Shown here: in pieces, positions 23,152 through 50,548 of the stretch
How the letters are laid out: each line of letters opens with the position of its first letter
Position numbering within the stretch: the first letter of the stretch is position 1
Assembly: GCA_024707225.1 (NCBI GenBank)
Contig: JANQAE010000002.1
Span: 558,001-622,000 of the forward strand
Direction: 5' to 3'
Source: Dokdonella sp.
Lineage (GTDB): Bacteria > Pseudomonadota > Gammaproteobacteria > Xanthomonadales > Rhodanobacteraceae
Length of the DNA: 64,000 nucleotides
The notes under the pieces: generated by a model
The model's database searches: none
Told to the model about the DNA's origin: nothing
Seen by the model: only the letters and a program-made list of their open reading frames with translations
Program-made: the position numbers and the translations under genes

Positions 23152-23252
23152 CGGGGCGAGGGTAAACGCCGCGTGCGCGCGTGACCAGAGCGCCGCCGCA
23201 GACGGCGGCGCCCCGGTCGCGAATCCGCCCGGTGCCGGCAGGGCGGAGGAGG

Positions 23253-26183: not shown

Positions 26184-26627
26184 CTACTCGGCAACCTTCG
26201 CGTAGTTGCCCTTCAGCGTGACGCCGGTGACGAACGCGCCGTCGTGGCATTCGTAGTCGGTCGGGCTGGCCTTGGTGTTCTTCTTGTAGTAGCTGACCAT
26301 GCCGATCACGGCGTTGGCGCCGATCTGCTTGGCCTTCTGCTCGAACGCGATCAGCGCCGACAGCGCGGCCCACTGGCAGGCGCGGTCGATGCCCTTGCCG
26401 GCGCTGTTGGTCTTCTTGTTCGATACGTCCGAGCTCATCTTCTGCAGCACCTTCGGCGTCTTCTGGCCTTCCAGATAGAACGCGACCGAGCCGTCGAGCT
26501 TGCCCTCGGCCTTGCCGAGTTCGATGACGTCCTTGAGCGGCAGCATGTGGGCGTCGTCACGGGCGGACGCGGGCGCGGCGGCGGCCAGCAGCAGCGTGGC
26601 CAGGGCGGTGGCGATGACGGTCTTCAT
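26184..26627 (-). CDS. Small secreted protein, last gene of the aryl-polyene operon
   Basis: A 147-residue protein with a Sec signal peptide (cleaved after about residue 22, ASARDD). The mature part has paired cysteines (DRACQW and YECHDG). Its segment KQIGANAVIGMVSYYKKN recalls the YbjQ/heavy-metal-binding fold. Proteins like this sit in aryl-polyene clusters of xanthomonads and, as far as I recall, are often labelled 'excinuclease ATPase subunit', which the sequence does not support (no Walker motifs, exported). It lies 30 bp after the preceding ketosynthase gene. Its role in pigment synthesis or transport is unknown. Confidence 0.65.
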   Translation of the reverse strand: MKTVIATALATLLLAAAAPASARDDAHMLPLKDVIELGKAEGKLDGSVAFYLEGQKTPKVLQKMSSDVSNKKTNSAGKGIDRACQWAALSALIAFEQKAKQIGANAVIGMVSYYKKNTKASPTDYECHDGAFVTGVTLKGNYAKVAE

Positions 26628-26657
26628 CAGGGATCTCCTTCGGAAAAACGGCGGGGG

Positions 26658-27908
26658 TCAGTCGCTCCAGCGGCGCAGCACCAGCGAGGTGTTGATGCCG
26701 CCGAACGCGAAGTTGTTGGTCATGACCAGGTCGGTGTCGATCGCGCGGCCGGCACCGGTCACGTGGTCGAGCGGCGCGCAGCGCGGATCGACGCTGCCGA
26801 GATTGACGGTTGGCGCGAACCAGCCGCTGCGCATCATCTCCAGCGTGATCCAGGCCTCCAGTGCGCCGCAGGCGCCGAGCGTATGGCCCATGTAGCTCTT
26901 CAGCGACGAGATCGCGACATGCTCGCCGAACACCGCATGGGTCGCCGCGGCCTCGGCGACGTCTCCCTGGTCGGTCGCGGTGCCGTGCGCATTGACATAG
27001 GCGATCGCCGCGGCCGGCAGGCCGGCGTCGGCCAGTGCCAGGCGCATCGCCGCGGCCATCGTCTCGCTGTTGGGATGGGTCACGTGGCGGCCGTCGCTGT
27101 TGGTGCCGAAGCCGACGATCTCGCCGAGGATCCGTGCGCCGCGCGCCTGCGCATGCTCGAGTTCCTCGAGCAGGAACGTGCAGGCGCCCTCGCCGAGCAC
27201 CAGGCCGTCGCGCTCGGCGTCGAACGGACGCGGCGTCAGCTGCGGCTCGTGGTTGTGGCGCACGCTGGTCGCGAACAGCGTGTCGAACACCGCCGCCTGC
27301 GTCGCGTCCAGTTCCTCGGCGCCGCCGGCCAGCATCGCGACCTGATGGCCCGCCTTGATCGCCTCGTACGCGTAGCCCAGGCCCTGGCTGCCCGAGGTGC
27401 AGGCGCTGGAGGTCGTCACGACGCGGCCGGTGATGCCGAAGAACACGCCGACGTTGACCGGCGCGGTGTGCGACATCATGCGGATGTAGGTCGTCGCGTT
27501 GATGCCCTCGGTGGTCTTCTCGGCGATCATCCGGCCGAAGTCGCCGATCGCGACCGGCGAACCGGACGACGAGCCGTAGGCGATGCCGACGCGGCCGCTG
27601 CCGAGCAGCGGATCGCCGAGCAGGCCGGCGTCGGCGAGCGCCAGTTCGCTGGCGCGCGTGGCCATCAGCGCGACGCGGCCCATGCTGCGCGTGTTCTTGC
27701 GATTGTAGGTGTCGGCCGGCAGCTCGAACGCGGCTGCGCGCGCGCCGACGCGCGTGTTGAGCCCTTCGTAGGCGTCCCATTCCTCGATGTAAGTGACCGC
27801 GTTGCGTCCGGCGCGCAGGCGCGCCTCGACGCTGCTCCAATCGTTGCCGAGCGGGCTGATCGCGCCGACGCCGGTCACCACGACGCGTCGCGTTGCCGCC
27901 GGCCTCAT
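26658..27908 (-). CDS. apeR: Aryl-polyene 3-oxoacyl-ACP synthase (ApeR-like ketosynthase)
   Basis: A 416-residue FabF-type condensing enzyme with a full catalytic triad: C170 in TSSACTSGS, H308 in NAHGTATD and H342 in YMGHTLGA. The N-terminus (RRVVVTGVGAISPLGNDW), the SMGRVALMATRASELAL helix and the C-terminal NNFAFGGINTSLVLRRW match the second ketosynthase of aryl-polyene clusters. Its position after KS-dehydratase-ketoreductase matches apeR in the Ape gene order. It elongates the ACP-bound aryl-polyene chain with malonyl units. It lies 10 bp after the ketoreductase gene. Confidence 0.9.
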   Translation of the reverse strand: MRPAATRRVVVTGVGAISPLGNDWSSVEARLRAGRNAVTYIEEWDAYEGLNTRVGARAAAFELPADTYNRKNTRSMGRVALMATRASELALADAGLLGDPLLGSGRVGIAYGSSSGSPVAIGDFGRMIAEKTTEGINATTYIRMMSHTAPVNVGVFFGITGRVVTTSSACTSGSQGLGYAYEAIKAGHQVAMLAGGAEELDATQAAVFDTLFATSVRHNHEPQLTPRPFDAERDGLVLGEGACTFLLEELEHAQARGARILGEIVGFGTNSDGRHVTHPNSETMAAAMRLALADAGLPAAAIAYVNAHGTATDQGDVAEAAATHAVFGEHVAISSLKSYMGHTLGACGALEAWITLEMMRSGWFAPTVNLGSVDPRCAPLDHVTGAGRAIDTDLVMTNNFAFGGINTSLVLRRWSD

Positions 27909-27918
27909 GCCTGCACCC

Positions 27919-28649
27919 TCATCCGACCAGACCTCCGTTGACAGAAATCACCTGGCGCGTGATGTAGGCGGCGTCCTCGCCCATCAGGAAGCTGACCACC
28001 GCGGCGACCTCCGCCGGTTTGCCGACGCGGCCGGCCGGGATCAGCTTCAGCGCCTCGTCGAGCACGCGCGGATCGACCATCTCGGTGTCGATCAGACCCG
28101 GCGCGACGCAGTTGACGGTGATCGCGCGGCTCGCCAGTTCGACCGCCAGCGCCTTGGTGGCACCGATGATGCCGGCCTTGGCGGCGCTGTAGTTGACCTG
28201 GCCGCGGTTGCCGATGATGCCCGACACCGACGCCAGCGTGACGATGCGGCCGGGCCTGCGACGGCGCACCAGCGGCATCGTCAGCGGATGCAGTACGTTG
28301 TAGAAGCCGTCCAGGTTGGTGTGGACGACCGCGTCCCAGTCCTCCGGCGGCATCGCCGGAAACGCGTTGTCGCGCGCGATGCCGGCATTGCAGACGATGC
28401 CGTACGGACAGCCGTGCGCGTCGACGTCGGCCAGCAGCGCCGCGGCGCGGCGGCGCGGTCGGCGACGTCGAACATCAGCACGCGCGCGGCGCGGCCGAGC
28501 GCGCCGATCTCCTCGGCGACCGCGTCGGCCTCCGCCTTGCGGCTGCGGCAGTGCAGGACCAGGTCGTAGCCGTCGCGCGCCAGGCGCAGCGCGATCGCGC
28601 GGCCGATGCCGCGGCTGGACCCGGTGACCAGGATCGTCTTGTCAGTCAT
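27919..28649 (-). CDS. apeQ: Aryl-polyene 3-oxoacyl-ACP reductase (ApeQ/FabG-like), frameshifted
   Basis: A short-chain dehydrogenase of about 243 residues. The N-terminal half has the NADP-binding TGSSRGIGRAIALRLA and the FDVADRAAA segment. The C-terminal half, in another frame, has SVSGIIGNRGQVNYSAAKAG with the catalytic Ser-Tyr-Lys, and a C-terminus TRQVISVNGGLVG. The frames must join in the GCGGCGCGGCGGCGCGG stretch around 28441-28460. The span is one base short of a multiple of three. It reduces the beta-keto group after each condensation. The start (28649) overlaps the preceding dehydratase stop. Confidence 0.85.
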
Positions 28650-29103
28650 CGTGCCCCCGTTGCAGCAAGGCGGCCGCATCGGCCGGTTCGTACACGGTCA
28701 GCGCGGCCTCGGCCACGGTCCGGGCGGCCTGCGTGATGCGGCAGTCGAACTGGCCCAGGCCGTTGTCGGCGAGGTACTCGCAGCGGATCTCCACGCGCAG
28801 CGTCTGCCCCGGCAGGAAGCGCGCGACCGTACAGCGGTACCGCCGGCTGCCGAGCAGGAAGCCGATCCTCGGCGTGCCGCCGCCGGCACGCGCGCGCAGG
28901 CCGGCCCAGGCCGCGATCGCCTGCGCCATGTACTCGATGCCGACCCAGCTGCCGACGCCTTCGCCGTCGAAGAACAGGCCGTCGTCGCGGATGTCGACCT
29001 CGGCGACCAGGCGGTCGGCGTCGGCCTCGATCGCACGATCGAGCAGACGCATGCGTCCGGCATGCGGCAGCAGGTCGGCGATCGGCAGCGCGACCGGCAT
29101 CAT
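28642..29103 (-). CDS. apeP: Aryl-polyene 3-hydroxyacyl-ACP dehydratase (ApeP-like hotdog)
   Basis: A 153-residue single-hotdog dehydratase. The FabZ/FabA-like start LLPHAGRMRLLDRAIEAD and the central hotdog helix VGIEYMAQAIAAWAGL are visible, followed by strands RRYRCTVARFLPG. It removes water from the beta-hydroxyacyl-ACP to create each double bond. In Ape systems ApeP works with a second dehydratase, ApeI, here fused to the ligase. Its start overlaps the previous ketosynthase stop (ATGATG) and its stop overlaps the reductase start. Confidence 0.85.
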   Translation of the reverse strand: MMPVALPIADLLPHAGRMRLLDRAIEADADRLVAEVDIRDDGLFFDGEGVGSWVGIEYMAQAIAAWAGLRARAGGGTPRIGFLLGSRRYRCTVARFLPGQTLRVEIRCEYLADNGLGQFDCRITQAARTVAEAALTVYEPADAAALLQRGHDD

Positions 29104-30287
29104 CGGGCGCGGCCGAGCACGAGGCTGGCATTGCTGCCGCCGAACGCGAACGAGTTGCTGAGCACGTAGTCGAGCGGCCGGCCGAGCGCGCTGCCGGGTC
29201 CGGCGATCGTGACCGGTGCCAGGGCCGGATCGGCCGCGCCGTCCCACCAGTGCGCGGGCAGGCGGCCGTCGGGATTGTCGGCCAGCGTCAGCCAGGCCAC
29301 CGCCGCCTCGATCGCGCCGGCGGCGCCGAGCGTGTGGCCGGTCAGCGGCTTGGTCGAGCTGACCGGCACGCGGTCGCCGAACAGGCCGTTGACGGCCAGG
29401 CATTCCATCTGGTCGTTCTGCGCGGTCGCGGTGCCGTGCAGGTTGACGTAGTCGATCGCGTCCGGACCGATCGCGGCGCGCTGCAGCGCCTCGCGCATCG
29501 AGGCCGATGCGCCGCGCCCGCTCGGGTCCGGCGCCGAGATGTGATGCGCGTCGGACGACTCGCCCCAGCCGGCCAGCGTGACCGGCCCGGGCTCGCGCGT
29601 CATCAGGAACAGCGCCGCGCCCTCGCCGATGTTGATGCCGGCGCGATGGCGGCTCAGCGGATTGCAGCGCGCCGGGCTGATCGCCTCCAGCGATGCGAAG
29701 CCGGCCACCGTGAATGCGCACATCGAATCGCCGCCGCCGGTGATCACCGCGTCGCAGAGGCCGCCGCGCAGCAGCCGCGCCGCGCTCGCCATCGCCTTGG
29801 CGCTCGACGAGCAGGCCGTGGAGACGACGATCGACGGGCCGGCCAGGCCGAGCAGGCCGCCCAGCGCCATGACCGGCGAGCCGAGTTCCTGCTGGCCGAC
29901 GTGATAGTGCGACGGCAGCACGCCTTCGCGTGCGTAGTGTGCGATCGCGGTCTCGCTCTCGCCGATGCCCGAGGTGCTGGTGCCGAGCACCAGACCGACG
30001 CGGTCGGCGCCGTAGCGCGCGATTGCGGCGTCGACGGCCGGCCGGATCTCGGTCAGCGCGGTCAGCAGCAGCGCGTTGTTGCGGCTGCGCTGCCAGGCCG
30101 GCAGCACGCCGTCGTCGGCCAGCGTCTCGCCGACGATGCCCAGATGCAGCGTCTGCCCCGGCAGCACGCCGGCGTGCGCGGCGACGCCGCCCGGCGCCGC
30201 GGCGAACAGGCCCTCGCGCAGCGCATCCTGGCCGCGGCCGAGCGCGCAGACCACGCCGAGCGCGTTGAGATAGACCGGATCGTTCAC
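29100..30287 (-). CDS. apeO: Aryl-polyene ketosynthase (ApeO-like)
   Basis: A 395-residue KS with intact C159 (VSTACSSSAK), H284 (VNLHGTAT) and H318 (LTGHTLGA). It starts at a GTG (30285-30287) overlapping the lipoprotein gene's stop (GTGA). Gene order places it as ApeO, which in characterised clusters forms a heterodimer with the chain-length-factor-like ApeC. A matching Cys-less partner is encoded at 42781-43506. It should carry out the main chain elongation. Confidence 0.88.
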   Translation of the reverse strand: MNDPVYLNALGVVCALGRGQDALREGLFAAAPGGVAAHAGVLPGQTLHLGIVGETLADDGVLPAWQRSRNNALLLTALTEIRPAVDAAIARYGADRVGLVLGTSTSGIGESETAIAHYAREGVLPSHYHVGQQELGSPVMALGGLLGLAGPSIVVSTACSSSAKAMASAARLLRGGLCDAVITGGGDSMCAFTVAGFASLEAISPARCNPLSRHRAGINIGEGAALFLMTREPGPVTLAGWGESSDAHHISAPDPSGRGASASMREALQRAAIGPDAIDYVNLHGTATAQNDQMECLAVNGLFGDRVPVSSTKPLTGHTLGAAGAIEAAVAWLTLADNPDGRLPAHWWDGAADPALAPVTIAGPGSALGRPLDYVLSNSFAFGGSNASLVLGRAR

Positions 30288-30868
30288 GGCGCCAGCTCGC
30301 GCGAGTCGATCGTCAGCCGATAACCCTCGTGGCGGTTCTCGAGCACGATCGTGCCGGCCCAGGCCGGCATGGCGGCGTATTCGATCGCGACCGCGACGGT
30401 GTCGCCGTGGCGCAGCTCGCGCCGCAGGCCGCTCTCGTGCAGCGTCCATCCGGCCGGCAGGGCCGCGGCGATCGCGGCGGCCGGCCACAGCACCATCTGC
30501 ACGTCGCGCAGCACGCGCGCCGGATCGACCTGCGCCGGCAGTTGCGGATCGCGCTCCACGTCGAGCGTCCGGCCGTCCCAGCTCAGCGTCAGCACGCGCC
30601 GGTTCAGCGCGAGCGCGGCCAGACGCACGCGCTCGGCGTCGATCTCGAGCACCGCATCGAGCGGCTTGGCGCCCACCGCGGCGCCGTCGAGCCGCGCGAA
30701 GCGCAGCTGTTGGGCCAGGCCGATCGCGCCGCCGAACGCGGCCGGCGTCAGCGCCAGCGCCGGCAGCGGCGTGCCGGCGCGGCGCGGCACCTGCGCGCAG
30801 GCGGCCAGCAGCACGGCCAGGCCGGCCGCGATGCAGGCGGCGCGGATCGTGCCGATCAGGCCGCGCAC
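30284..30868 (-). CDS. DUF3261 outer-membrane lipoprotein of the aryl-polyene cluster
   Basis: A 194-residue lipoprotein with signal and lipobox LLAAC (about residue 21). The mature part shows the DUF3261 pattern: a beta-strand-rich body with RRVLTLSWDGRTL and LQMVLWP-like (VQMVLWPAAAIAAALP) segments. In Ape gene order this corresponds to ApeN, placed next to the MMPL exporter and LolA-like protein, so a role in moving pigment to the outer membrane is likely. The GTG at 30868 is the only suitable start. It overlaps the flavoprotein gene by 13 bp. Confidence 0.7.
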   Translation of the reverse strand: MRGLIGTIRAACIAAGLAVLLAACAQVPRRAGTPLPALALTPAAFGGAIGLAQQLRFARLDGAAVGAKPLDAVLEIDAERVRLAALALNRRVLTLSWDGRTLDVERDPQLPAQVDPARVLRDVQMVLWPAAAIAAALPAGWTLHESGLRRELRHGDTVAVAIEYAAMPAWAGTIVLENRHEGYRLTIDSRELAP

Positions 30869-32082
30869 AGCTGCTCCAGCGTCTTGAGGCGACGCGGTTC
30901 GGCGACGTAAGGGTTGTCCAGATCCCAGGCATAGCCGGCGAGGATCGCCGCGATCATGCGCCGGATCTCGGCGGACTGGCGCGGATGGAAGATCACGTCC
31001 TGGAAGCCGCCGGCGTACCAGCTGTCGACGAACGCGCGGAACGTGTCGACGCCGCGCTTGAGCGGATCGGCGTAGTCGCGCTGCCAGTCGACGGTCTCGC
31101 CGCCCGCTTCGCGCGCGAGCGCGGCGGCGGCCAGGCTGGCCGACTTGAACGCGATCGTCACGCCGCTCGAGAACACCGGATCGAGGAACTCGCCGGCATT
31201 GCCGAGCAGCGCGAAACGCTTGCCCCACAGCGAGCTGACGTTGGCCGCGTAACCGACCAGCTTGCGCGCCGGCGTGTCCCAGACCGCGTCGGCGAGCAGC
31301 CGGTTCAGCGTCGGCGTTTCGGCGACGATCGCGCGCAGGCGCTCGGTCTCGTCTCCCGGGAAACGATCGAGGAACTCCGGACGCGCGACCACGCCCTGCG
31401 AGCAGCGGCCGTTCGAGAACGGGATCGTCCAGAACCAGACGTCGACGTGCTCGGGATGCACGCTGACGAGGATCTTGTTGCGGTCGAACGCACCGGTCGC
31501 GATGCGATCCTCGACATGGGTGAAATAGGCGCCGCGGACCGGAAAGCTCGATGGGGTTTCGAGCTTGAGCAGGCGTGGCAGGATGCGGCCGAAGCCGCTG
31601 GCGTCGAGCAGGAAGTCGGCGCGCACCTGGTACATGCTGCCGTCCGGCGCGACGACGTCCACGCTCGGCTGGTCGCCCTCGACGTCGACCGCGACCACCT
31701 GATGGCGATAGCGCACCTCGGCGCCGGCCTTCTCGGCGGCCTTGGCCAGCACGTGGTCGAAGTCGGCGCGCTGCACCTGGTAGGTGGTGCCCCAACCCTT
31801 TGAGAACTTGTCGCGGAAGTCGAATGCGGTGGCGCGCTCGCCGCGCACGAAGGCCGCGCCGTTCTTGTACTGGAAGCCGGCCTCGACGACGTCGCGCAGG
31901 AAGCCGGCCTCTTCCAGGTACTGCATGCTCTGCGGCAGCAGGCTCTCGCCGATCGAGAAGCGCGGAAACTGCTCCTTCTCGATCATCAGTACGCGCCGGC
32001 CCTGCCGGCGCAGCATGCCGGCGGCGACCGAACCGGCCGGGCCGGCACCGACGATGAGGATTTCGGTGCGTTCGATCTGCAT
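30856..32082 (-). CDS. FAD-dependent halogenase-like flavoprotein of the aryl-polyene cluster
   Basis: A 408-residue single-component-fold flavoprotein. The FAD-binding GAGPAGSVAAGML lies at 12-24. A halogenase-type core (FSIGESLLP, GFQYKNGAAF with candidate catalytic K73) is followed by WFWTIP at 216-221, an exact match to the WxWxIP signature of flavin-dependent halogenases. The region LLGNAGEFLDPVFSSGV is the second FAD-contact segment. Xanthomonadins are brominated aryl polyenes, so ring or chain halogenation is a reasonable prediction. A non-halogenating oxidoreductase remains possible. It lies between MMPL and lipoprotein genes in the operon. Confidence 0.75.
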   Translation of the reverse strand: MQIERTEILIVGAGPAGSVAAGMLRRQGRRVLMIEKEQFPRFSIGESLLPQSMQYLEEAGFLRDVVEAGFQYKNGAAFVRGERATAFDFRDKFSKGWGTTYQVQRADFDHVLAKAAEKAGAEVRYRHQVVAVDVEGDQPSVDVVAPDGSMYQVRADFLLDASGFGRILPRLLKLETPSSFPVRGAYFTHVEDRIATGAFDRNKILVSVHPEHVDVWFWTIPFSNGRCSQGVVARPEFLDRFPGDETERLRAIVAETPTLNRLLADAVWDTPARKLVGYAANVSSLWGKRFALLGNAGEFLDPVFSSGVTIAFKSASLAAAALAREAGGETVDWQRDYADPLKRGVDTFRAFVDSWYAGGFQDVIFHPRQSAEIRRMIAAILAGYAWDLDNPYVAEPRRLKTLEQLCAA

Positions 32083-32262
32083 GGTCAGCGGTTCCCGGAT
32101 GCGAAAGCGAGCGAGGCGAAGCGGCCGCCTCCCCGGCGGCGCGCGCAGTATGCCGGGAATGGCGGCCGGCGCAGAAGAACGCCGCGTTCAGCCAGCGCCG
32201 CGCGGCACGCCCGCGGCAGGCCGCCGCCACGCATGCCGCGGCTGTCCTGACGCAAGATCGCG

Positions 32263-34617
32263 TCATATCCGATCACGTTCCGCGTGTTCGGACTCCGGCA
32301 TGAACAGCGGCGTCAGCAGCCAGGCCAGGAAGATGCCGAACAGCATCGTCAGGCCGAACGCGCGCAGCGCCGGTGTCTGCGACAGCGCCAGCAGACCGAA
32401 CGCGAGCAGGATGCAGGCCGCGGCGATCGTCACCGACAGGAACGGGCGGCGCTCGCCGCGGCCGGGCTGCTCGAGCAGGAAGATGCCGTAGTCCACGCCC
32501 ATGCCGAGGATCAGCAGCAGCGCGAGCACGTTGAACAGCTGCAGCGACTGGCCGAGCAGCGCGAGCAGGGCCAGCGCCAGCACGCTGGCGATCGCGGTCG
32601 GCGCCAGGGCGCGCCAGCCGCGGCGGCCGAAGCGCAGGCACAGCGCGACCAGCACCAGCGCATAGCTGGCGAGGATCACCATGCCCATGCGCTGGCGGTA
32701 GTGCGTGAGCACCTCGGACACCTCGCCGACCTTGTCGACGAAGCGCACGCCGGGCACGCCGTCGGCGACCGCGGCCAGCCGCGGGAACTGCTTCGGATCG
32801 TGCGCGCCGCGCAGCAGCATCACGCTGGCGTAGCCGTCGCCGAAGCGGCCCAGCCACTGATGGTGCAGCGGCTCGGACACCGGTGCGGCGAGCCAGTCCT
32901 CGATCCGCAGCGTCGCGGCCGGCGTGGGCGCCGGCGGCGCGAACGTCTCGCCGAGCCGCGCCGATGCCTGCGCGAGCACGCCGTCGGCGCCGCCGATGCG
33001 GCCTGCGATCAGGGCATGGTCCTCGGCCTGTCGCGCCGGCGAGGGCACCCAGTCCGACACCGCCTGCCAGCCGTCGAGCACGCCCTCGCCGGCCAGGCCG
33101 GCCAGCGCGCGCTTGACCGCCTCCTCGGCGACGAGCACCTCGCCGGGACTCGGTGCGGCGACCAGGTAGAACTGCGCCGGGCTCGGCAGGTCGAGCAGCT
33201 TGCCGAGCGCGAGCTGCTGCTCGATCAGCGTCGGCGGCGAGTTCTGCAGCAGGCGGATGTCGTCGTTGCTGCGCAGCTTGAACGCGCCGGCCGCGACGAT
33301 CGCGAGCACGAGCGCCCAGAACGCCAGCGTGAAGCGGTTGCGGCCGAGCGCCGGCCAGTACGCGCGGCGGCTGCCGAGCCAGTCGGCGAAGCGGTTGAAC
33401 GGGATCGGCCGGTGGTCCAGGAACGGAAACCACCACAGCACCGTCACGAATGCCGCGAGCAGGCCCACGCCCGAGAACACCGCGATCTGGCGCAGCCCCG
33501 GGAACGGCGCCAGCGCGAGCAGCGCATAGCCGATCACCGTCGTCAGCATCGCCAGCCACATCACCGGCGCCTGCCGCCGCCGCATCGCCCAGCGCTCCTC
33601 GGGCGGCCGGCCGAGCCGGTTGCAGAACCAGTTGGTGCCGTAGTTCTCGGCGACGCCGACCAGACTCGCGCCGAACACCAGCGTGATCAGGTGCACGCGT
33701 TCGAACAGCAGCGCGCAGACCGAGATCGCCGCGAGCAGGCCGACGCCGATCGACAGCGCGACCAGCAGGCGCGGGCGCAGGCCGTTGAACGCCAGCACGG
33801 TCAGGATCAGGATGCCGGCCAGCGAGCCGAGGCCGATCGTGTGGACCTCCCGATGCGCCTGCTCGGCCGCATGCGCCGCGTACAGCGGCACGCCGGCGTT
33901 GATGACCTCGGCACCGGGCACGGCCGCCAGCGCGGCCGCGCGCGCCGCCTCGAGCACCGGCACCAGCGCGCGCTGTGCGGCGATCGAGAATGCCGATCCG
34001 TGCTGTTCGACCATCAGCAGCGCGTACTGCCGGCCGTCGCCGGCGACCGAGAGCCGCTCGTCGACGACCCGCACCGGGCTCTCGGCCGCGCGCGCGGCGA
34101 GCCAGCCGCCGAACAGGTTCAGCGGGTCGTCCTGCCAGGCGCCGATGCGCGGCATGCCGAACGGCCGGTACAGCGCCTCGACCGCCTTGGCCGCCAGGCG
34201 TTCGGTCGATTCGGTCGTCAGTTCGGCGCGCTGCGCATCGGTCAGCAGCTGGCCGCGATACGGCGCGAAGAAGCCGATCCAGTCGTCGGCGAGGTCGGCG
34301 CCGACCCGGTAGCGCAGGCCGAGCGAGGCATCGGCGGCCTCGATGCTGGTCGCGTAGGCATCGGCCGCGGCGCGTGCCGAAGGCCAGTCCGCGGCGCCGA
34401 CCAGCACGACGACGCGGCGTCCGGCCGCGTCGGCGAGCTGGCGCGTCGCGTCCTGCACGGCGCGGTCGTCGGCACGCTGCGGCAGCATCGCCAGCATGTC
34501 GGTCTCCAGCTGCAGGCGGTCGCCGCTCCACAGCCACAGGCCGTGGCCGGCCATCGCCAGCACGACCAGCAGCCAGCCGATCGCGAGCCGGCGCGCCGAT
34601 GCGGTCGCCTCACTCAA
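32263..34617 (-). CDS. MMPL/RND-family exporter of the aryl-polyene cluster
   Basis: A 784-residue protein with 12 predicted membrane helices in two halves. Each half is preceded by a large periplasmic loop (residues about 35-240 and 420-600). Sequences such as VFGASLVGVAENYGTNWF and LLILGMGVDYGIFLLEQPG are the helix-4/helix-10 motifs of MMPL-type RND transporters; the second contains the proton-relay GxxxDYG. It corresponds to ApeM and probably extracts the finished pigment lipid from the inner membrane. The start overlaps the LolA-like gene's end by 8 bp. Confidence 0.88.
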   Translation of the reverse strand: MSEATASARRLAIGWLLVVLAMAGHGLWLWSGDRLQLETDMLAMLPQRADDRAVQDATRQLADAAGRRVVVLVGAADWPSARAAADAYATSIEAADASLGLRYRVGADLADDWIGFFAPYRGQLLTDAQRAELTTESTERLAAKAVEALYRPFGMPRIGAWQDDPLNLFGGWLAARAAESPVRVVDERLSVAGDGRQYALLMVEQHGSAFSIAAQRALVPVLEAARAAALAAVPGAEVINAGVPLYAAHAAEQAHREVHTIGLGSLAGILILTVLAFNGLRPRLLVALSIGVGLLAAISVCALLFERVHLITLVFGASLVGVAENYGTNWFCNRLGRPPEERWAMRRRQAPVMWLAMLTTVIGYALLALAPFPGLRQIAVFSGVGLLAAFVTVLWWFPFLDHRPIPFNRFADWLGSRRAYWPALGRNRFTLAFWALVLAIVAAGAFKLRSNDDIRLLQNSPPTLIEQQLALGKLLDLPSPAQFYLVAAPSPGEVLVAEEAVKRALAGLAGEGVLDGWQAVSDWVPSPARQAEDHALIAGRIGGADGVLAQASARLGETFAPPAPTPAATLRIEDWLAAPVSEPLHHQWLGRFGDGYASVMLLRGAHDPKQFPRLAAVADGVPGVRFVDKVGEVSEVLTHYRQRMGMVILASYALVLVALCLRFGRRGWRALAPTAIASVLALALLALLGQSLQLFNVLALLLILGMGVDYGIFLLEQPGRGERRPFLSVTIAAACILLAFGLLALSQTPALRAFGLTMLFGIFLAWLLTPLFMPESEHAERDRI

Positions 34618-35353: not shown

Positions 35354-35389
35354 ACGACGATCCTCACAGGGCCTGGACGGACGCGCGCG

Positions 35390-35821
35390 TCACGGACTGA
35401 CGCCGAGACGATCCCACAATACGCGCGGACACACGTACTGCATCTGACCGCTGGCGATCTCGACCGCGACCTGGATCGTGTGCGCGCGCGTCATCCGCTC
35501 GCCGCTGAGCGCATCGCGGATCAGGTAGTCGATCTTCAGCCGGTTCTCCCACTCGACGATCGTCGCGCGCACCTGGAGCGCGCGGCCCCAGATCGCCGGG
35601 CGGATGTACTTGCTGCGCAGATCGACGATCGGCCAGAAGTAGCCCGAGTCGCGCATCTGCGGATAGTCGTAGTCGAAGCGCTGCAGCAGCGCGCAGCGCG
35701 CCAGCTCCAGATACTTGAGGTAATGCCCGTGCCAGACCACGTTCATCGGGTCGAAGTCGTGGAACGCCGGCGTCAGCTCGATCGCGTGGCTGAAGCGGTC
35801 GTCGGCGGTGCGCTCAGTCAT
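35390..35821 (-). CDS. apeK: Acyl-ACP/CoA thioesterase (ApeK-like, 4HBT hotdog)
   Basis: A 143-residue hotdog thioesterase with the 4-hydroxybenzoyl-CoA-thioesterase pattern: HDFDPMNVVWHGHYLKYLE, containing the catalytic Asp and Asn-Trp-His-Gly, and YIRPAIWGRALQVRATI. In Ape systems ApeK releases or proofreads ACP-bound aryl-polyene acids. It starts 8 bases inside the end of the ammonia-lyase gene and is followed by the LolA-like gene, 36 bp away. Confidence 0.85.
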   Translation of the reverse strand: MTERTADDRFSHAIELTPAFHDFDPMNVVWHGHYLKYLELARCALLQRFDYDYPQMRDSGYFWPIVDLRSKYIRPAIWGRALQVRATIVEWENRLKIDYLIRDALSGERMTRAHTIQVAVEIASGQMQYVCPRVLWDRLGVSP

Positions 35822-37359
35822 GGACGCTCCAGGCGCGCGCGCGGATCGCCTCGACCAGGCCGCCGAGGTCGGCGTCGAGCGCGCGGTCCTCGTCGACCAG
35901 GGCGATGCGCCGCTCCAGATCGGCGTGCATCGCCGCCAGCGGCGGACTCAACGCGAGCGCCGGATCGACGCGTGCACGCAGCGTGATGCCCTGGCGCGCC
36001 GCGATCAGCATCGCCGCGACGACCTGCTCGGTCAGCTCGAGCACGCGCAGCGCGTCGCGCGCTGCGATCGTGCCCATACTGACCTTGTCCTGGTTGTGGC
36101 ATTCGGTCGAGCGCGAAAACACCGAGGCCGGCATCGTCAGCTTCAGCGCCTCGGCGGTCCACGCCGACACGCTGATCTGCAGGGCCTTCAGGCCGTGGTT
36201 GATCGCCGCGCGCGGACCCTCGGCGGCGCTGAGATTGCTCGGCAGGCCGTGGTTGAAGCGCGTGTCGACGAGCAGGGCCAGCTGGCGGTCGAGCAGGTCG
36301 GCGAGGTTGGCGACCGCGTTCTTGAGCGTGTCCATCGCCAGCGCGATGTGGCCGCCGTAGAAATGGCCGCCGTGCAGCACCGCGCGCGTCGTCGGGATCG
36401 ACCAGCGGATTGTCGTTGGCGCTGTTGAGCTCGTTCTCGATCAGCCCGCGCAGGAACGGCAGCAGATCCTCGAGCACGCCGATCACGTGCGGTGCGCAGC
36501 GCAGCGAATAGCGGTCCTGCAGGCGCTGCTCGTTGCGCGGCGGCCGGTCGCTGGCCAGATCCGCGCGCAGCCGCGCCGCGACGCGCTGCTGGCCCGGATG
36601 CGGCTTGGCCGCGAACAGCCGTTCGTCGAAATGATGCGCATTGCCGGCGCTGGCCAGCACGTTGAACGCGGTCAGCCGCGTCGCCAGCCGGCCCAGATAG
36701 TCCGCGCGCGACCAGGCCAGGCAGGCCAGCGCGGTCATCACGGCGGTGCCGTTCATGATCGCCAGGCCTTCCTTCGGGCGCAGCCGCAGCGGCACGATGC
36801 CGAGCTCGGCGAAGACCTCGGCGGTGGCGCGCCGCGCGCCGCCGTACCAGACCTCGCGCTCGCCGCAGAGCACCGCGGCCACGTACGACAGCGGCGTCAG
36901 GTCGCCGCTGGCGCCGACCGAGCCTTCGGCCGGGATCAGCGGCAGGATGTCGTGCCGCAGCAGCCGCTCGAACTGCTCGAGCAGGCCGGTGCTGACGCCG
37001 GACATGCCGATCGCCAGCGAGGCCAGCCGCGTCGCCAGCACTGCGCGCGTCTCCTCCGGCGTCAGCAGGCGGCCCGCGCCGCAGCCGTGGTACGCGTACA
37101 GGTGATGCGGCAGCTCGGCGACCAGGGCCGGCGGGATCGTCACCGTGCACGAGTCGCCGTAGCCGGTCGTCACGCCGTAGATCACGCCGTCGGTCGCGAG
37201 CAGGCGATCGAGGAAGGCCGCGCCGCGGCTGATCCGGTCGCGGAATGCGGTCTCGGTCGACAGCTCGGCGCCGCGCCGGCGCTGTGCGAGAGCGATCACA
37301 TCCTCGATCGACAGCGCGCGGCCGTCGAAACGGACCGCCTCAGGAACGCTCGGAGCCAT
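35814..37359 (-). CDS. Aromatic amino-acid ammonia-lyase (HAL/TAL/PAL superfamily), frameshifted
   Basis: An approximately 514-residue MIO enzyme. The prosthetic-group triad A150-S151-G152 lies in GSVGASGDLTPLS, and catalytic Y61 is in YGVTTGYGDS. In the substrate-selectivity position the pair reads Y90-H91 (YHGCG), unlike the Ser-His of HAL or His-Leu of the best-known TAL; this is a visual alignment. The body continues to NSANDNPLVD, then the frame is lost. The rest (VLHGGHFYGGHIALAMD to the end) is in another frame. One extra G in the GGG run at 36394-36396 explains it: without that G the joint reads DPTTRAVLHGG. It should make a cinnamate-type starter for the aryl polyene. Confidence 0.85.
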
Positions 37360-38279
37360 CGCTCTGATCCCAGAATGGAAAGAAGTTGAACCAGTCATAT
37401 GGCGAGCGCTCGAGCATGCGCGTGAGGGCGGCGGCGTAGCGCGCAGCATAGTCGGCAATCGCCTCCTCGCGGCGGCCGCGCGGCAGCTCGACGCGATCGG
37501 CCAGCGGTTCGAAGCGGATCGTGTAGCGGCCGCGCTCGTGGATCGAGGCCAGGAAGTGGACCGGACATTTCAGCAGCGCCGCCAGCACCCAGGGGCCGGC
37601 CGGCAGCGGCGCGCGGTGGCCGAGGAAGTCGACCGCGACGGTCTGGCTCGCGAACACCGGCACACGGTCGCCGGCGATCACGACGTATTCGCCGGCGGCC
37701 ACCTTCTCGCCGAGCAGCAGCGCGGTCTCCGGGCCGATCGAGGGTGACCTCGATCAGGTTGACGTCCTGGGCCGGGTTGAGCCGCTTGAGCAGGCGGTTG
37801 AACTGCGCGGCATGGCGCGTGTGGACGAGGATGTTGAGCCGGAACACGCCGCGGTGTCCGGCCATCGCGCGGCCGATCTCCAGGCAGCCCAGATGCGCGG
37901 TCACCAGCAGGCCGCCGACGCCGCGCCCGGCGATCGCGTAGATCTCCTCGCGGCCCTCGGTGTGCACGTTCTCGAACCGGTAGCGGCCCGACACCGCCAG
38001 CAGCTTGTCGAGCAGCGTCTCGGCGAACAGGCCGACGTGGCGCATGCCGTCGCGCCAGGTCGGCGTGTGGCCGAGCGCGCCGGTCGCGGCCTGCAGCCGC
38101 TCCAGGTACTGCAGCGAGGCCGCGCGCAGGTCGCGCCGGGCCAGCCAGTAGACGCCGATCACCGGATAGACCGCGAGGCGGAACGGCCAGCGGCCGAACA
38201 GGCGGTGCACCCAGTACAGCAGCCAGATGCCGGCGACGAAGGTGTTCTCGCCGATCTGTGCCCAGTGCCGCGCGCTCAA
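37340..38279 (-). CDS. LpxL-like acyltransferase of the aryl-polyene cluster, frameshifted
   Basis: An approximately 312-residue lauroyl/myristoyl-transferase-type enzyme. The N-terminal membrane segment ends near ARHWAQIGENTFVAGIWLLYW. The catalytic HX4D-like region is TAHLGCLEIGRAM, and the C-terminus YDWFNFFPFWDQ is typical. One extra G in the GGG at 37742-37744 breaks the frame; removing it joins NLIEVT to SIGPETALLLGEKV. The start is a TTG (38279) with AAGGTGG just upstream, overlapping the glycosyltransferase stop. In E. coli-type clusters this activity is fused to the glycosyltransferase as ApeJ; here they are two genes. Confidence 0.82.
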
Positions 38280-39013
38280 GAGGCCACCTTGCGCCAGAGC
38301 AGGCGCGGCAGGCGCAGCAGCATGCCGAGGAACAGTCGCGCGTGCATGCGCGAGATCAGCAGGTTGTCGCGCAGCACGTCGAAGTGCGAGACGCCGTCGC
38401 TCGGATAGCGCACCTGCGTCGGCAGATTGACGATGTCCACGCCGCGCCAGTGCAGCCGCACCAGCACCTCGCTGTCGAAATCCATGCGCCGGCCCAGCCG
38501 CGCCGCATCGAGCAGCGCGATCGTCGGCGCCAGCGGATAGACGCGGAAGCCGCACATCGAGTCGCGGATCGCCAGCGACAGCGTGTTGATCCAGACCCAG
38601 ACGTGGGTCGCGTAGCGGCCGTAGAGGCGGCCCTTCGGCACGGTGTCGTCGAAGATCGGACAGCCGCAGATGACGCTGGAAGGGTAGCGCCCGGCCTGTT
38701 CGAGGAAGCACGGGATGTCGCGCGTGTCGTGCTGGCCGTCGGCGTCGATCTGCAGCGCATGCGTGAAGCCGCGCGCAGCGGCCGCGCGCAGGCCGGCGAT
38801 CATCGCGCCGCCCTTGCCCTGGTTGAGCGGCAGGCGCACCAGGCGCACGCGATCCGGATCGGCGCTGGCGATCAGGTCGAGCACGCTCGCGCAGTCCGCA
38901 TCGCTGCCGTCGTCGACCAGGATGCACGGCAGGCCGTGGGCGAGCACGGCCTCGACGACGGCGCCGACCGCCCGGCCGTGGTTGTAGACCGGAATCACCG
39001 CGCAGGTCTTCAC
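38276..39013 (-). CDS. Family 2 glycosyltransferase of the aryl-polyene cluster
   Basis: A 245-residue GT2 with the nucleotide-sugar fold: IPVYNHGRAV, ILVDDGSD and the metal-binding QIDADGQHDTRDIP. A C-terminal region follows with RDSMCGFRVYP and DFDSEVLVRLHW. It resembles dolichol-phosphate-mannose-type enzymes but lacks added membrane helices. It would attach a sugar to the pigment or its lipid anchor. The start is a GTG (39011-39013) overlapping the end of the ligase-dehydratase gene (GTGA). Confidence 0.87.
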   Translation of the reverse strand: MKTCAVIPVYNHGRAVGAVVEAVLAHGLPCILVDDGSDADCASVLDLIASADPDRVRLVRLPLNQGKGGAMIAGLRAAAARGFTHALQIDADGQHDTRDIPCFLEQAGRYPSSVICGCPIFDDTVPKGRLYGRYATHVWVWINTLSLAIRDSMCGFRVYPLAPTIALLDAARLGRRMDFDSEVLVRLHWRGVDIVNLPTQVRYPSDGVSHFDVLRDNLLISRMHARLFLGMLLRLPRLLWRKVAS

Positions 39014-40707
39014 GGTGCCTCGCCGAACGCGATGCGGCCGCCGGCGTGCGGGCCGGCCGCCGAACTCAGCCGGAACGTCAGCTGGCCGCGCTCGGCCGAG
39101 TAGGCAAGATCGAGCTCGACCTCGCCGCCCGGCACGATGACCTGCTGGAACTTCAGCGCCTCCAGTCCCCGGAACGCCGGCGGCAGCGCGAACAGTTCGC
39201 GCGCGAAGCCGATCGCCCAGTCGATCTGGGTCACGCCGGGCACGATCGGCGCGCCGGGGAAATGGCCGTCGAACCACGGCAGGTCGGCGTCGATCGTCAG
39301 CCGCAGCCGTGCCGTCGAGGCGTCGTGCCCGAGCAGACGCGCATGCGGCCGGCGCGGATCGAACAGCGCGAGCAGGGCGGCCTCGGTCGTCTTGCCCTGG
39401 CTGTTCAGCGGCAGTGCCCAGGCGTAGCGCCAGCGCGCGCGGCCGCACGCTGGCGTCGACGTGCGCGGCGAGCAGGCCGCGCAGGCGTTCGCCGAACGCG
39501 CGGCGCCCATCGGCGTCGAGCCGCGCCCAGCCGGTCTCGCTCGGCACGACCACGCCGCCGAGCTGCGCACGCGGGCCGGGCAGCACGACGACGCGCACCG
39601 CGGCGACGGCCTCGTCGGCGGCCAGCACGCGCTCGATCGCGTCGAGCGAGACGCGCTTCTCCTCGATCTTGGCGATGCGGTCGCGGCGGCCGCGCAACAC
39701 GAAGCCGCCGGCGGCCGCTGCGGCACGGTCGGCGCTCGGCTGCCAGTCGCGTCCGGCCAGATGCGGCGAGCGCACCCACAGCGTGTCGTCCTCGATACGG
39801 ATCTGGACGTCCGGCAGCGGCCGCCACGCGGCATCGCCGTCGCTGTCGCGCCGGCGCCAGGCGACGCCGCCGGTCTCGGAGCTGCCGTAGACCTCGATCG
39901 GCGCATGGCCGAGCAGCGCACGGCAATCGGGCAGCGCCTCGTCCGGCAGCGGACCGCCCGACGAGAACACGCCGTGCAGTCCTGCCCGTGCCGCCGCCCA
40001 AGGCAGCGCCTGCGGCAGCCGCTTCAGATGCGCGGGGCTGGCGACCAGCAGCGACGGGCCGCGCGCGAGCGCGGCGGCGATGTCCTCCGGAAACGCCAGG
40101 CGTGCGGTCGCGAACGGGCGCCCGGCCGCGAGCGGCCACAGCACGCGGAACAGCAGGCCGTAGATGTGCTGGTGCGAGACCGTCGCATGCACGCAGGCCT
40201 GCGCCGGCAGGTCCGGCCAGGCGCGTTCGAGCGCGCCGACCTCGTCGAACAGCTGGCCGAGCCGCTTGCCGATCGCCGCCGGCTCGCCACTCGATCCGGA
40301 CGTGTAGACGGTCAGGCCGGTCCAGTCCGGATCGAGCGCGCGCCAGTCGGTCGTGGCCGGCTGCGGCGCCGGCCGCAGCGGATCGAGCGTGGCCGGCACG
40401 TCGCCCGCGAAGCGCTCGACGTGCGTGCCGAGCCGGGCCAGCGTCGCCGGCAGGGCGTCGGCCGGCAGCCAGACCTCGGTGCCGGCATGCCAGGCGCCGA
40501 ACAGCGCCGCCGCGAACTCGAATCCGTCCTCGATATACAGGCCGACCGAAGCGACGCGCGCCTGCACGAACGCCCTGCCGCCAGGCGCCGCGGCGGCGCG
40601 GCGAACGCGCCGAACGTCAGCGCCGTGCCGCCGCGCAGCGCGACCGCATGACCGGCCGGCCGGCCGGTCGCCAGCAGCTGGCCCGGCGCGACGAACGGCG
40701 GCCTCAT
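39010..40707 (-). CDS. Fused AMP-dependent ligase and 3-hydroxyacyl-ACP dehydratase (ApeH-ApeI), two compensating frameshifts
   Basis: About 565 residues. The N-terminal part is an ANL-superfamily ligase: phosphate loop VYTSGSSGEPAAIGK, A5 motif YGSSETGGVAW, and a C-terminal lysine region LNSQGKTTEAAL. It is followed in the same frame, without a stop, by a hotdog dehydratase (PWFDGHFPGAPIVPGVTQID). The ligase should load the aryl acid onto an ACP; the dehydratase matches ApeI. The gene is broken twice: one base missing at about 40602-40605 (restores LTFGAFRRAAAAP) and one extra in the CGCGCGC at about 39432-39443. The total length is therefore a multiple of three. The ATG at 40707 overlaps the previous gene's stop. 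Confidence 0.82.
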
Positions 40708-41258
40708 CGCGGCTCTCCGGCCGCCGCGTGGCGCGCGCGGACGCGCCGGCGCACCAGCCATTCGGCGGCGAACAGCGCGCCGATCAGCCCATAGGCGATC
40801 AGGCCGTTGTAGAGCGCCCAGGTCGCCGCGTCGGCCCACAGCGCGGTCGCCAGCGCCAGCGTGCCGTTGACGACGAAGAAGCCGCACCAGACCCAGGTGA
40901 CCTTGCGCGTATAGGCGATCGCGGCCGGCGGCAGGTCCGGCTCGCGCAGGCGCGCCAGGCGTTCGATCGCGCTCGGCGGATGCGCCAGGCTGATCGCGAA
41001 CACCGTCAGCAGCACCGCATTGACCAGGGCCGGATACAGCTTCAGCGGCAGCAGCGCGTTGCCGAGCGCGGCGACCGCGGCCAGCACCAGCGCACCGGCG
41101 GGCGCGGCCAGCCAGAGCCGCTCGCGTGTCGCGGCGGCGCGTGCCAGCGCGAGCACGGCCAGGCCCACCGCCAGCCAGCGCGGTTCCAGATGGGCCATGC
41201 CCAGCCACACCAGCAGCGGGTAGGCCAGCGTCGCCAGCGCGATCAGGGCCAGGCGCAT
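40704..41258 (-). CDS. Small multi-pass membrane protein (ApeG/COG4648-like)
   Basis: A 184-residue protein with five to six hydrophobic helices. Between helices 3 and 4 lies LREPDLPPAAIAYTRKVTWVW, the characteristic conserved segment of the membrane protein found in nearly all aryl-polyene clusters. Its biochemical function is unknown; association with the ligase and acyltransferases in the membrane is likely. I chose the ATG at 41258 at the start of the first helix; an upstream ATG at 41315 would add 19 polar residues. It overlaps the ligase start by four bases. Confidence 0.75.
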   Translation of the reverse strand: MRLALIALATLAYPLLVWLGMAHLEPRWLAVGLAVLALARAAATRERLWLAAPAGALVLAAVAALGNALLPLKLYPALVNAVLLTVFAISLAHPPSAIERLARLREPDLPPAAIAYTRKVTWVWCGFFVVNGTLALATALWADAATWALYNGLIAYGLIGALFAAEWLVRRRVRARHAAAGEPR

Positions 41259-41345
41259 GGCGAGCGGTCGGTGGCGCCGGGCCGGCGCAGCGGTCGAGGC
41301 CGCGCCGGCCGGCACGCACGAATGGGCCCGGAGCGCATCGGCGGA

Positions 41346-41612
41346 TCAGTCGTTGAGCAGGCCGTGCAGCGCGTCGACGACGTCCTGCAGCGTACGCACC
41401 GACTTGAACGCGTCCGGCTGCAGGCGCACGCCGACGATCGGCTTGAGCTTCACGATCAGGTCGACCGCGTCGATGCTGTCGATGTCCAGATCCTCGTACA
41501 GGCGTGCCTCCGGCCGGATCGCGTCCGGGTCGATCTCGAAGGTGTCCTGCAGGATCGCCGAGAGGCGCTGGAAGATGTCGTCGGGCGTCATGGCGAGCGT
41601 GGCGGCGTTCAT
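41346..41612 (-). CDS. apeF: Acyl carrier protein 2 of the aryl-polyene cluster
   Basis: An 88-residue ACP with the 4'-phosphopantetheine site DLDIDSIDAVDLIVKLK; the modified serine is in DSID. Acidic helices flank it. It starts at ATG 41612, overlapping the stop of the first ACP (ATGA); an internal ATG at 41591 is possible. Ape pathways use two ACPs, ApeE and ApeF, one being the main chain carrier. Which of the two genes here is which is assigned by order only. Confidence 0.88.
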   Translation of the reverse strand: MNAATLAMTPDDIFQRLSAILQDTFEIDPDAIRPEARLYEDLDIDSIDAVDLIVKLKPIVGVRLQPDAFKSVRTLQDVVDALHGLLND

Positions 41613-41872
41613 GCGGTCCGGGAATCGGCGACGAAGCGCGAAAGCGCGCGCACGCTGGCGAAATGGCGGCGCGTTTCCTCCGACTCGGCCGACAGCGTCA
41701 CGCCGTACCGCTTCTGCAGCGCCAGCCCGAGCTCGAGCGCGTCGATCGAGTCCAGCCCGAGCCCGTCGACGAACAGCGGCGCGTCCGGATCGATGTCGTC
41801 GGCGCCGACGTCCTCGAGGTTGAGGGCTTCGATGATCAGCAGCTTGATCTCCTGCTCCAGCGGTTCGTGCAT
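41609..41872 (-). CDS. apeE: Acyl carrier protein 1 of the aryl-polyene cluster
   Basis: An 87-residue ACP with pantetheine site DGLGLDSIDALELGLAL. It is followed by QKRYGVTLSAESEETRRHFASV, a region longer than in FabF-pathway AcpP and typical of Ape carriers. It lies 32 bp downstream of the acyltransferase gene and overlaps the second ACP by four bases. Confidence 0.9.
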   Translation of the reverse strand: MHEPLEQEIKLLIIEALNLEDVGADDIDPDAPLFVDGLGLDSIDALELGLALQKRYGVTLSAESEETRRHFASVRALSRFVADSRTA

Positions 41873-41904
41873 GAGGGGGCCTTGGGTGACGGTGGGGGCG
41901 AAGT

Positions 41905-42788
41905 TTAGAACGGGTCGACCGGTTTGGGGCGCGCCGCTGCGGCGGCGCGGCGCGCATCCGGCGCGCTCAGCCGGTCTGCGGCAGCCGCTCCGGCGGTGCC
42001 GCATCCGAGGCGGCCGCCGCGCCCGCTTCCCCCATACGAAAAACAGCGGTGCAAGTGATCGGTGATGCGGCGCGCGGCCAGGCCGGCCTCGCCGCCGGCC
42101 GCCGCCAGGAACGGCGCGACCGGGATGTCCTGGCCGATCCGGATCGTGTACTGCATGCGGCGCGGCGGCACGCGCCACCACGGCAGGCCCTTGGTCAGGC
42201 TGCGCGGCTCGCAGCGGATCAGCACCGGCGTGATGTCGCAGGGGCCGCGCGCGGCGATGTTGGCGGCGCCGCGCTGCAGGCGCATCGGCCCGTCCACCGG
42301 CGTGCGCGTGCCTTCCGGGAAGATGATCAGGTTGCTGCCGCTCTTGACCGAGGCGATGCAGTCCTCGATCAGCCCGGCGCCGGAGTCGTTGCAGAGGTAG
42401 TCGGTCGCGCGGATCGGTCCGCGCGTGAACGGATTGCGCGCCAGCCCCGAGCGCACGACACAGTCGGCCTCGGGCACCAGCGAGACCAGGAACACCACGT
42501 CGAGCAGGGTCGGGTGGTTGGCCAGGATCAGCAGGCGCGGCGATCCAGCCGTTCGCGGCCTTCGATGCGGTAGTCGAGCACGCCGAGCAGGCGCATCCAC
42601 TCGATGAACAGTCTGAACGCATGGTGCACCGAGCGCCGCGCCAGCCGCGTGCGGCGCGCGCGGTCGCGCACCAGCAGACCGAGCAGCGGAAACCAGACCA
42701 GCCACAGCAGCACGCCGCCGACGCCGAACGTCGCGAACGACAGGCCCGTGCCGAAGACGCGCCAGCCGCGGTCGAGCGCCTCACGCAT
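41905..42788 (-). CDS. PlsC-like 1-acylglycerol-3-phosphate acyltransferase (ApeD-like), frameshifted
   Basis: An approximately 294-residue membrane acyltransferase. The N-terminal hydrophobic segment (VGGVLLWLVWFPLLGLLVRD) and the link VLDYRIEGRERL are in one frame. The catalytic NHPTLLDVV (HX4D) and FPEGTRTPVDGP are in another. The joint lies near 42541-42556 and the span is one base short of a multiple of three. It probably adds the acyl chain that anchors the pigment, or makes its lipid part. The start at 42788 overlaps the preceding gene's stop. Confidence 0.82.
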
Positions 42789-43506
42789 GGCGCCGCCACT
42801 GCCACAGTCGCGCGCCGGCACGATGATCCAGCGCCGCCGCGTCCGATTTCAGGAAGCCGAGCACGCGGCGGTCGGCCGAGCGGTCCGGCGCTACGTCGGC
42901 TGCGGCGCCCGCCGGCGCGTTCGCGTCGGCCGGCACCGAGCTGAGGCTGATGCCGGCGCCGTCGCCGAGGCGCAGCCGGCAGGCCCAGGCATGCGCGGTG
43001 TCCGGATAGCCGGCGTAGACGTCGTAGGGTGCCGGCAGCGGCTCGTCGTAGCAGACCACCATGACCGCCGGCGTGCCGTCGGCGAGCAGGCCGATCGCTT
43101 CGGTGAACGCGGCCTCGACGGTCTCGTCGCCGGCGGCGATCGCGGTGTACGACGCCGTATGGCCGCCGGCGATCGACCACAGTGCGCCGAACGCGTTGTG
43201 CACCGACAGGCTGAAGGCCGTCGGTGACGGCGTCTGGCCGTCGACGAGCTGGCGCAGCAGCGCGATCGAGCGCGGCACGTCGCCGTAGCGCGACGCGAAG
43301 ATCACCGGCAGCGGCGCGTCCTGGCCCTGGCTCGCATAGGCCACATGCAGCGCCATGCGGCCGAGTGGCTCGACGCGCCGGCGCATCATCGGCGGCATCT
43401 CGCCGAGCTTCGGCAGCGGCTGCTCGCCGCCGCCGCCGGCCGCGGGCATCCGGACCAGGTCGTCCGGCCAGGTCGCAAGGTGGGTCACCTGCAAGCGTGG
43501 GCTCAT
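42781..43506 (-). CDS. apeC: Chain-length-factor-like ketosynthase subunit (ApeC-like)
   Basis: A 241-residue protein resembling the N-terminal half of a ketosynthase. The segment that would hold the nucleophile reads SLSVHNAFGALWSIA, with no cysteine, and no later HGT motif is present. The preceding IFASRYGDVPRSIALL is typical of the family. In Ape biosynthesis ApeC forms a heterodimer with ApeO and limits chain length, so this is probably the partner of the KS at 29100-30287. It is the first gene of the minus-strand operon. Confidence 0.82.
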   Translation of the reverse strand: MSPRLQVTHLATWPDDLVRMPAAGGGGEQPLPKLGEMPPMMRRRVEPLGRMALHVAYASQGQDAPLPVIFASRYGDVPRSIALLRQLVDGQTPSPTAFSLSVHNAFGALWSIAGGHTASYTAIAAGDETVEAAFTEAIGLLADGTPAVMVVCYDEPLPAPYDVYAGYPDTAHAWACRLRLGDGAGISLSSVPADANAPAGAAADVAPDRSADRRVLGFLKSDAAALDHRAGARLWQWRRHA

Positions 43507-45034: not shown

Positions 45035-46842
<1,808 letters not shown>

Positions 46843-50547: not shown

Positions 50548-50548
50548 G

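Follow-up and report, generated by a model that had tools for sequence, protein, structure and literature searches.

An aryl-polyene operon in Dokdonella sp. with an ammonia-lyase as a possible source of a second starter

Aryl polyenes (Ape) are yellow membrane pigments of a very common kind in Gram-negative bacteria. The Ape cluster of Escherichia coli CFT073 comprises ApeA to ApeR (PMC8253772), and the same type II ketosynthase chemistry is described for the xanthomonadin-type clusters of Xanthomonas and Lysobacter enzymogenes and for the arc cluster of Azoarcus (PMC3691225, PMC3949708). According to these descriptions, the latter clusters hold a gene for XanB2, and XanB2-type enzymes make 3- and 4-hydroxybenzoate (3-HBA and 4-HBA). 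The flexirubin cluster of Chitinophaga pinensis encodes an MIO-type lyase, FlxA, as reported in PMC3992019. Here we describe a related locus in Dokdonella sp., lying in a stretch of 64,000 nucleotides (hereafter the window, G000:C3:558001-622000) of a 4.37 Mb genome assembled in four contigs. The window carries an Ape operon at 26184-43506 on the minus strand, with added genes for an ammonia-lyase and a halogenase-like flavoprotein.

Gene content and order of the cluster

Domains were called by Pfam scans of each frame, and further matches were scored against NCBIfam models and solved structures; a genome of the same genus in one contig (G005) served as intact reference for the cluster. The initial annotation, made from the letters of the stretch, had listed 19 genes on a single strand with overlaps at most junctions, and had read them as an ApeC to ApeR operon with an added lyase and a halogenase-like flavoprotein. 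All 19 were located, and domains and order bear that reading out: from 43506 to 26184 the genes run ApeC-D-E-F-G-HI-J(glycosyltransferase)-J(acyltransferase)-lyase-K-L-M-flavoprotein-N-O-P-Q-R-small secreted protein. Overlaps were found at 11 of the 18 junctions (C/D, E/F, G/HI, HI/J glycosyltransferase, J glycosyltransferase/J acyltransferase, J acyltransferase/lyase, lyase/K, L/M, N/O, O/P and P/Q), a count that rests in part on inferred gene starts. Chance can be ruled out as the source of the cluster, with domain E-values down to 1e-106 and the order kept in G005, where two aligned segments of 84-85% DNA identity span almost all of it.

The locus contains the ketosynthase/chain-length-factor pair ApeO-ApeC together with ApeR, the dehydratases ApeI and ApeP and the reductase ApeQ (PF22818, PF22817 and PF13561, with ApeHI and ApeQ split here), two acyl carrier proteins (ACPs) with the aryl-acid ligase ApeH (split here, open in G005), and the export set ApeL, M and N. 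From these matches it is almost certainly an aryl-polyene cluster in which every gene from ApeC to ApeR is represented. It is an ordinary operon of common architecture, intact in its congener, and one more case of a known system. The order from C to R is that of E. coli CFT073, as compared for rows E to R of the table in PMC8253772 and for C and D in its other and further passages. Differences from that cluster are that H and I form one protein here and J two, and that the lyase, the flavoprotein and the small secreted protein at the tail are added; ApeA and the methyltransferase ApeB, which belong to the CFT073 set, were not recognised among the 19 genes.

In the order of the genes, ApeC (42781..43506, 241 aa) is a homologue of chain-length-factor-like ketosynthases (PF13723, 4e-55), and the acyltransferase ApeD (41905..42788; PF01553, 8.7e-10), whose start was inferred from frame 2, is split between two frames where G005 has one of 282 aa. 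The two acyl carrier proteins are ApeE (41609..41872, 87 aa; PF00550, 7.6e-8; 92% to G005) and ApeF (41346..41612, start inferred; PF00550, 2.6e-8; 96% to G005). ApeG (40704..41258, 184 aa, 89% to G005), a small membrane protein, is named by position only, with no Pfam match over the cut-off. The fusion of the aryl-acid-activating ligase ApeH with the dehydratase ApeI (39010..40707; PF00501, 3.9e-15; PF22818 ApeI-like, 8e-15) is split at two places and forms a single open frame of 561 aa in G005. ApeJ is represented by a family 2 glycosyltransferase (38276..39013, 245 aa; PF00535, 1.9e-15) and by a lipid A-type acyltransferase (37340..38279), also split, of 312 aa in G005 (PF03279, 1.4e-5 for the G005 protein).

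Beyond the lyase follow the hotdog thioesterase ApeK (35390..35821, 143 aa; PF13279, 2.4e-7; TIGR00051, 9.9e-14, below its cut-off), the LolA-like carrier ApeL (34610..35353, start uncertain; PF19574 LolA_3, 1.4e-11) and the MMPL/RND-type exporter ApeM (32263..34617, 784 aa; PF03176, 8.5e-5; 85% to G005). On the far side of the flavoprotein lie the DUF3261 lipoprotein-like ApeN (30284..30859, exact start uncertain; PF11659, 1.5e-34), the ketosynthase ApeO (29100..30287, 395 aa, ketosynthase domains in frame 2, 84% to G005) and the dehydratase ApeP (28642..29103, 153 aa; PF22817 ApeP-like, 2.6e-21). The ketoreductase ApeQ (27919..28649) is split, with PF13561 (1e-36) and PF00106 (1.3e-12) in two frames, and has 243 aa in G005. 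The FabB/F-like ketosynthase ApeR (26658..27908, 416 aa, 91% to G005) scores 676 bits with NF006587 (cut-off 470) against 27 bits with the DarB model (cut-off 550), the one dialkylresorcinol gene that was searched for. The last gene (26184..26627), for a secreted protein of 147 aa, had no Pfam match over the cut-off (sub-cut-off PF01906 YbjQ, E 0.029) and is supported by its conservation in G005 (86%).

The in-cluster ammonia-lyase

The MIO-type aromatic amino acid ammonia-lyase (35814..37359) is split here, with PF00221 matches of 1.1e-106 and 2.2e-42 in two frames, and has 514 aa in G005. It shows the ASG triad, YH at motif 1, where its relatives mostly have FH, and Gln at motif 2 (NQDKVSMG). 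Apart from the window's own pieces, 63 lyase sequences were aligned, and every one of them carries the MIO segment GSVGASGDLTPL unchanged and HNQDKVS as motif 2 (CHNQDKVSMG in 60, SHNQDKVSMG in two and CHNQDKVSLG in one). Under the rule given in PMC3992019, motif 2 has Glu in histidine lyases and Gln in tyrosine and phenylalanine lyases, and the proven tyrosine lyase FlxA has a motif 1 like that of histidine lyases beside a motif 2 of the tyrosine type, the latter likewise seen here. Tyrosine aminomutases are the closest solved structures (233 bits), and alignment to one of them, 2rjr, places SH and NQD at matching positions. Among NCBIfam models the BagA/FevW tyrosine lyases score best (431 bits, cut-off 1000), ahead of HutH (TIGR01225, 389 bits, cut-off 539) and of the FlxA model (320 bits, cut-off 700), a score that sets the enzyme apart from FlxA. 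Both the Gln at motif 2 in place of Glu and the HutH score below cut-off argue against a histidine ammonia-lyase. A separate lyase of 640 aa elsewhere in the genome (L084, G000:C1:818444-820042) reads ANAEDHVS, with Glu at motif 2, and by the same rule would be of the histidine type.

The motifs thus make the cluster enzyme a likely tyrosine lyase producing p-coumarate; that it feeds the polyene pathway seems to us an evenly balanced proposition. Several observations weigh against these assignments. Chains labelled histidine ammonia-lyase score 231 and 230 bits against the 233 of the aminomutases, no NCBIfam cut-off is reached, tyrosine-lyase models included, and the YH of motif 1 differs from the pattern of tyrosine and phenylalanine ammonia-lyases. 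Moreover, the presence of the lyase does not track missing starter genes, and it would not be needed where a XanB2-like enzyme is present (both below).

To see how common the arrangement is, ApeR was scanned for in named genomes, the best 80 of 90 relatives were kept, and loci were fetched around ApeR, reaching at most 10 kb upstream of it, some less, and weighted heavily to Acinetobacter. The lyase occurs in 62 of the 80 loci, a flavoprotein of at least 45% identity also in 62 and both in 59, while 57 show the contiguous order acyltransferase-lyase-K-L-M. As the fetched loci are short, absence of either gene from a locus is no proof of absence from the genome; the L009 locus, for example, shows no lyase, yet the L009 genome has one at 74%. 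The idea that the gene combination was unusual does not withstand these counts. Loci of Acinetobacter, Chromobacterium and Pseudoxanthomonas share the order acyltransferase-lyase-K-L-M-(flavoprotein)-...-O-P-Q-R with the window, at protein identities of about 24-84%; unlike the window, those of Chromobacterium and Pseudogulbenkiania show no flavoprotein. The small secreted protein mostly comes next in the loci of the first three genera, and its gene follows ApeR in many of the fetched loci.

A tree of ApeR with 47 rows, 32 of them from the 80 named loci, joins the window to G005 (100/100) and sets nine genomes of the same family in a separate clade (100/100) whose 4-kb loci show other ApeR neighbours than the window. 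The tree suggests transfer of the cluster into the genus, and does no more than suggest it because support falls to 82/63 for the broader group of 12 rows in which the window lies. Among ten genomes of the genus, a strong ApeR match was present only in the window's own and in G005, so the cluster is patchy in the genus; in the other eight the best ApeR E-values (1e-61 to 1e-72) are at the level of other ketosynthases.

It is tempting to generalise from these data to an uncharacterised subfamily of MIO lyases, defined by (Y/F)HG, ASG and HNQDKVS, that would act as tyrosine lyases and prime the polyene synthase with p-coumarate in most of the fetched Ape loci (62/80), although we hold this somewhat short of an even chance. 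In the collection of papers searched, we found none that tests an ammonia-lyase from an aryl-polyene cluster of Proteobacteria. Ammonia-lyase genes are reportedly drawn in some clusters by Cimermancic 2014 and Schoner 2016.

Alternative starters, halogenation and broken frames

An amino-acid starter had been proposed initially because no XanB2-type gene was visible. This holds for the window only. A chorismatase of the XanB2/FkbO/Hyg5 type lies about 530 kb from the cluster, at G000:C3:53530-54303, so the argument from absence fails, and the lack of a starter gene in one stretch is a poor guide to the whole genome; an amino-acid starter is possible on the ground of the lyase motifs instead. 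The chorismatase passes PF21168 (E 6e-33, 113.9 against a cut-off of 27) and falls below the cut-off of TIGR04444 (6e-50, 170.8 bits against 325), which none of 23 other genomes passes, though 14 of them give a match; its solved relatives are 5ag3, 5a3k and FkbO (4bps). This was the single place found in the genome, Pfam scans of the minus-strand frames recognising no chorismatase within the cluster, and UbiC was not found in the window's genome. The locus hence differs from xanthomonadin-type and arc clusters, which hold XanB2 as described, in having a lyase in the cluster and the XanB2-like gene at a distance. Of the initial description as a xanthomonadin-like pigment, the aryl-polyene cluster stands; the likeness to xanthomonadin is weakened by the placing of the window's ApeR apart from the nine genomes of its family and by the lack of a recognised in-cluster chorismatase.

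The strongest alternative, which we consider plausible if somewhat less than evenly balanced, is that the starter derives solely from chorismate, as 3- or 4-hydroxybenzoate from the XanB2-like enzyme, and that the lyase caps, scavenges or tailors, for instance. The presence of the XanB2-like gene, with UbiC not detected, speaks for it, as do two studies as reported: deleting the XanB2 homologue of L. enzymogenes lowered pigment by about 90%, a loss that 3-HBA reversed (PMC3691225), and Azoarcus ArcB gave 3- and 4-HBA in E. coli and probably feeds the pigment in Azoarcus (PMC3949708). ApeR-bearing genomes without this lyase also exist, 19 of the 23 examined having no match at 64% identity or above. 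Against it stand the embedding of the lyase in the operon with overlaps and its active-site motifs, intact and conserved across many families. Co-occurrence of the lyase with a lack of XanB2 and UbiC was rejected as a test. Of 13 lyase-cluster genomes examined for both genes, five have the XanB2 type, five UbiC and three neither (G056, G065, G068), and where an ApeR-like synthase occurs without this lyase, neither was found in four (G023, G029, G074, G079) of 19 genomes; 3/13 against 4/19 does not discriminate, nor does it show the lyase to be a replacement for chorismate.

Less probable is that the flavoprotein (30856..32082, 408 aa) serves to halogenate the polyene. The protein matches the Trp_halogenase family (PF04820, 8.3e-24) and keeps WFWTIP and the Lys in GFQYKNG, which we take to be halogenase-type motifs. 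A halogenase-like gene is shared with the Xanthomonas and Azoarcus clusters as described (PMC3691225, PMC3949708), the former source placing a halogenase gene in the xanthomonadin clusters of two Xanthomonas species. Nevertheless, the nearest solved relative is 3nix, a 'Flavoprotein/dehydrogenase' (8.9e-106, 358 bits, nearly full length), whereas halogenases start at 3.1e-40 and the best chain so named reaches just 142 bits, as does the CmlS model against a cut-off of 900. Among the 62 loci with the lyase there are three in which no flavoprotein of this kind is seen, which makes it accessory. Halogenation by this protein is possible, and a halogenated product on the whole unlikely.

The last alternative is that the operon has recently decayed in this strain. 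Five cluster genes, namely ApeD, the acyltransferase of ApeJ, the lyase, the ketoreductase and, with two breaks, ApeHI, are broken between frames here and have open counterparts in G005, against no such break among the 17 genes aligned in the rest of the window, a density that favours decay and counts against a working operon. Within the cluster, the crude protein test against G005 behind these comparisons aligned 12 genes and flagged four, one of them an artefact caused by an open frame that spans ApeK/ApeL in the wrong frame and was excluded from the list of broken genes. It also flagged one of 20 in a ribosomal stretch and one of eight near the chorismatase, a gene that is likewise split; it missed the ApeHI and acyltransferase breaks, which were seen by frame comparison. 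In reverse it flags two of 25 window frames and none of 19 in the ribosomal stretch. Counts of DNA gaps against G005, dominated by paired alignment gaps, were dropped as a measure of breaks.

The gene hit in the ribosomal stretch encodes the 30S ribosomal protein S4 (uS4; L130 15930-16555), again open in G005. Since the S4 gene is essential, its split state means that assembly indels do occur in this assembly; it is also a warning of frame breaks elsewhere in the genome. The ratio of nonsynonymous to synonymous change (pN/pS) against G005 is below 1 (0.10 to 0.64) in all 13 of the 14 unbroken genes that were compared, the glycosyltransferase being left out, which counts against long-standing decay, and the split lyase pieces retain their motifs. 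Assembly error is therefore likelier than decay, which we regard as improbable, and the cluster probably works in this very strain.

Several other genes were noted around the cluster. A second family 2 glycosyltransferase lies just beyond it (45035-45781, minus strand), and coproporphyrinogen III oxidase (45838-46842, plus strand), pirin (47348-48400, plus strand) and a response regulator/sensor kinase pair (48687-50571, minus strand) flank it, the sensor kinase carrying a sub-threshold PilS-like region. Near the downstream end, a frame of 973 aa (20719-23640, minus strand) combines a winged-helix transcription regulator domain with tetratricopeptide repeats and is a possible candidate regulator.

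Proposed pathway and its meaning

By analogy with studied Ape systems, ApeH would load an aryl acid onto an acyl carrier protein, and ApeO-ApeC (with ApeR), ApeQ and ApeP/ApeI would extend it by malonyl steps, leaving conjugated double bonds. ApeD and ApeJ would then join the polyene acid to a lipid, and ApeM, L and N would transport the product to the outer membrane. The chorismate-derived acid would still be supplied by the XanB2-like enzyme encoded elsewhere in the genome. The extra lyase, we infer, may deaminate tyrosine to p-coumarate. As p-coumaroyl-ACP equals 4-hydroxybenzoyl-ACP after one extension, reduction and dehydration, such a second starter would join the pathway after its first cycle, and the polyene formed would be of the same kind. 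Taken together, the homologies make it probable that the locus is an operon for Ape biosynthesis, attachment and export whose lyase is a possible source of a second starter.

The use of this locus is as a pointer to the conserved in-cluster lyase. If its proposed role is true, aryl polyenes of a widespread proteobacterial class would, like flexirubin, have their origin in tyrosine, and chorismate would not be their only source.

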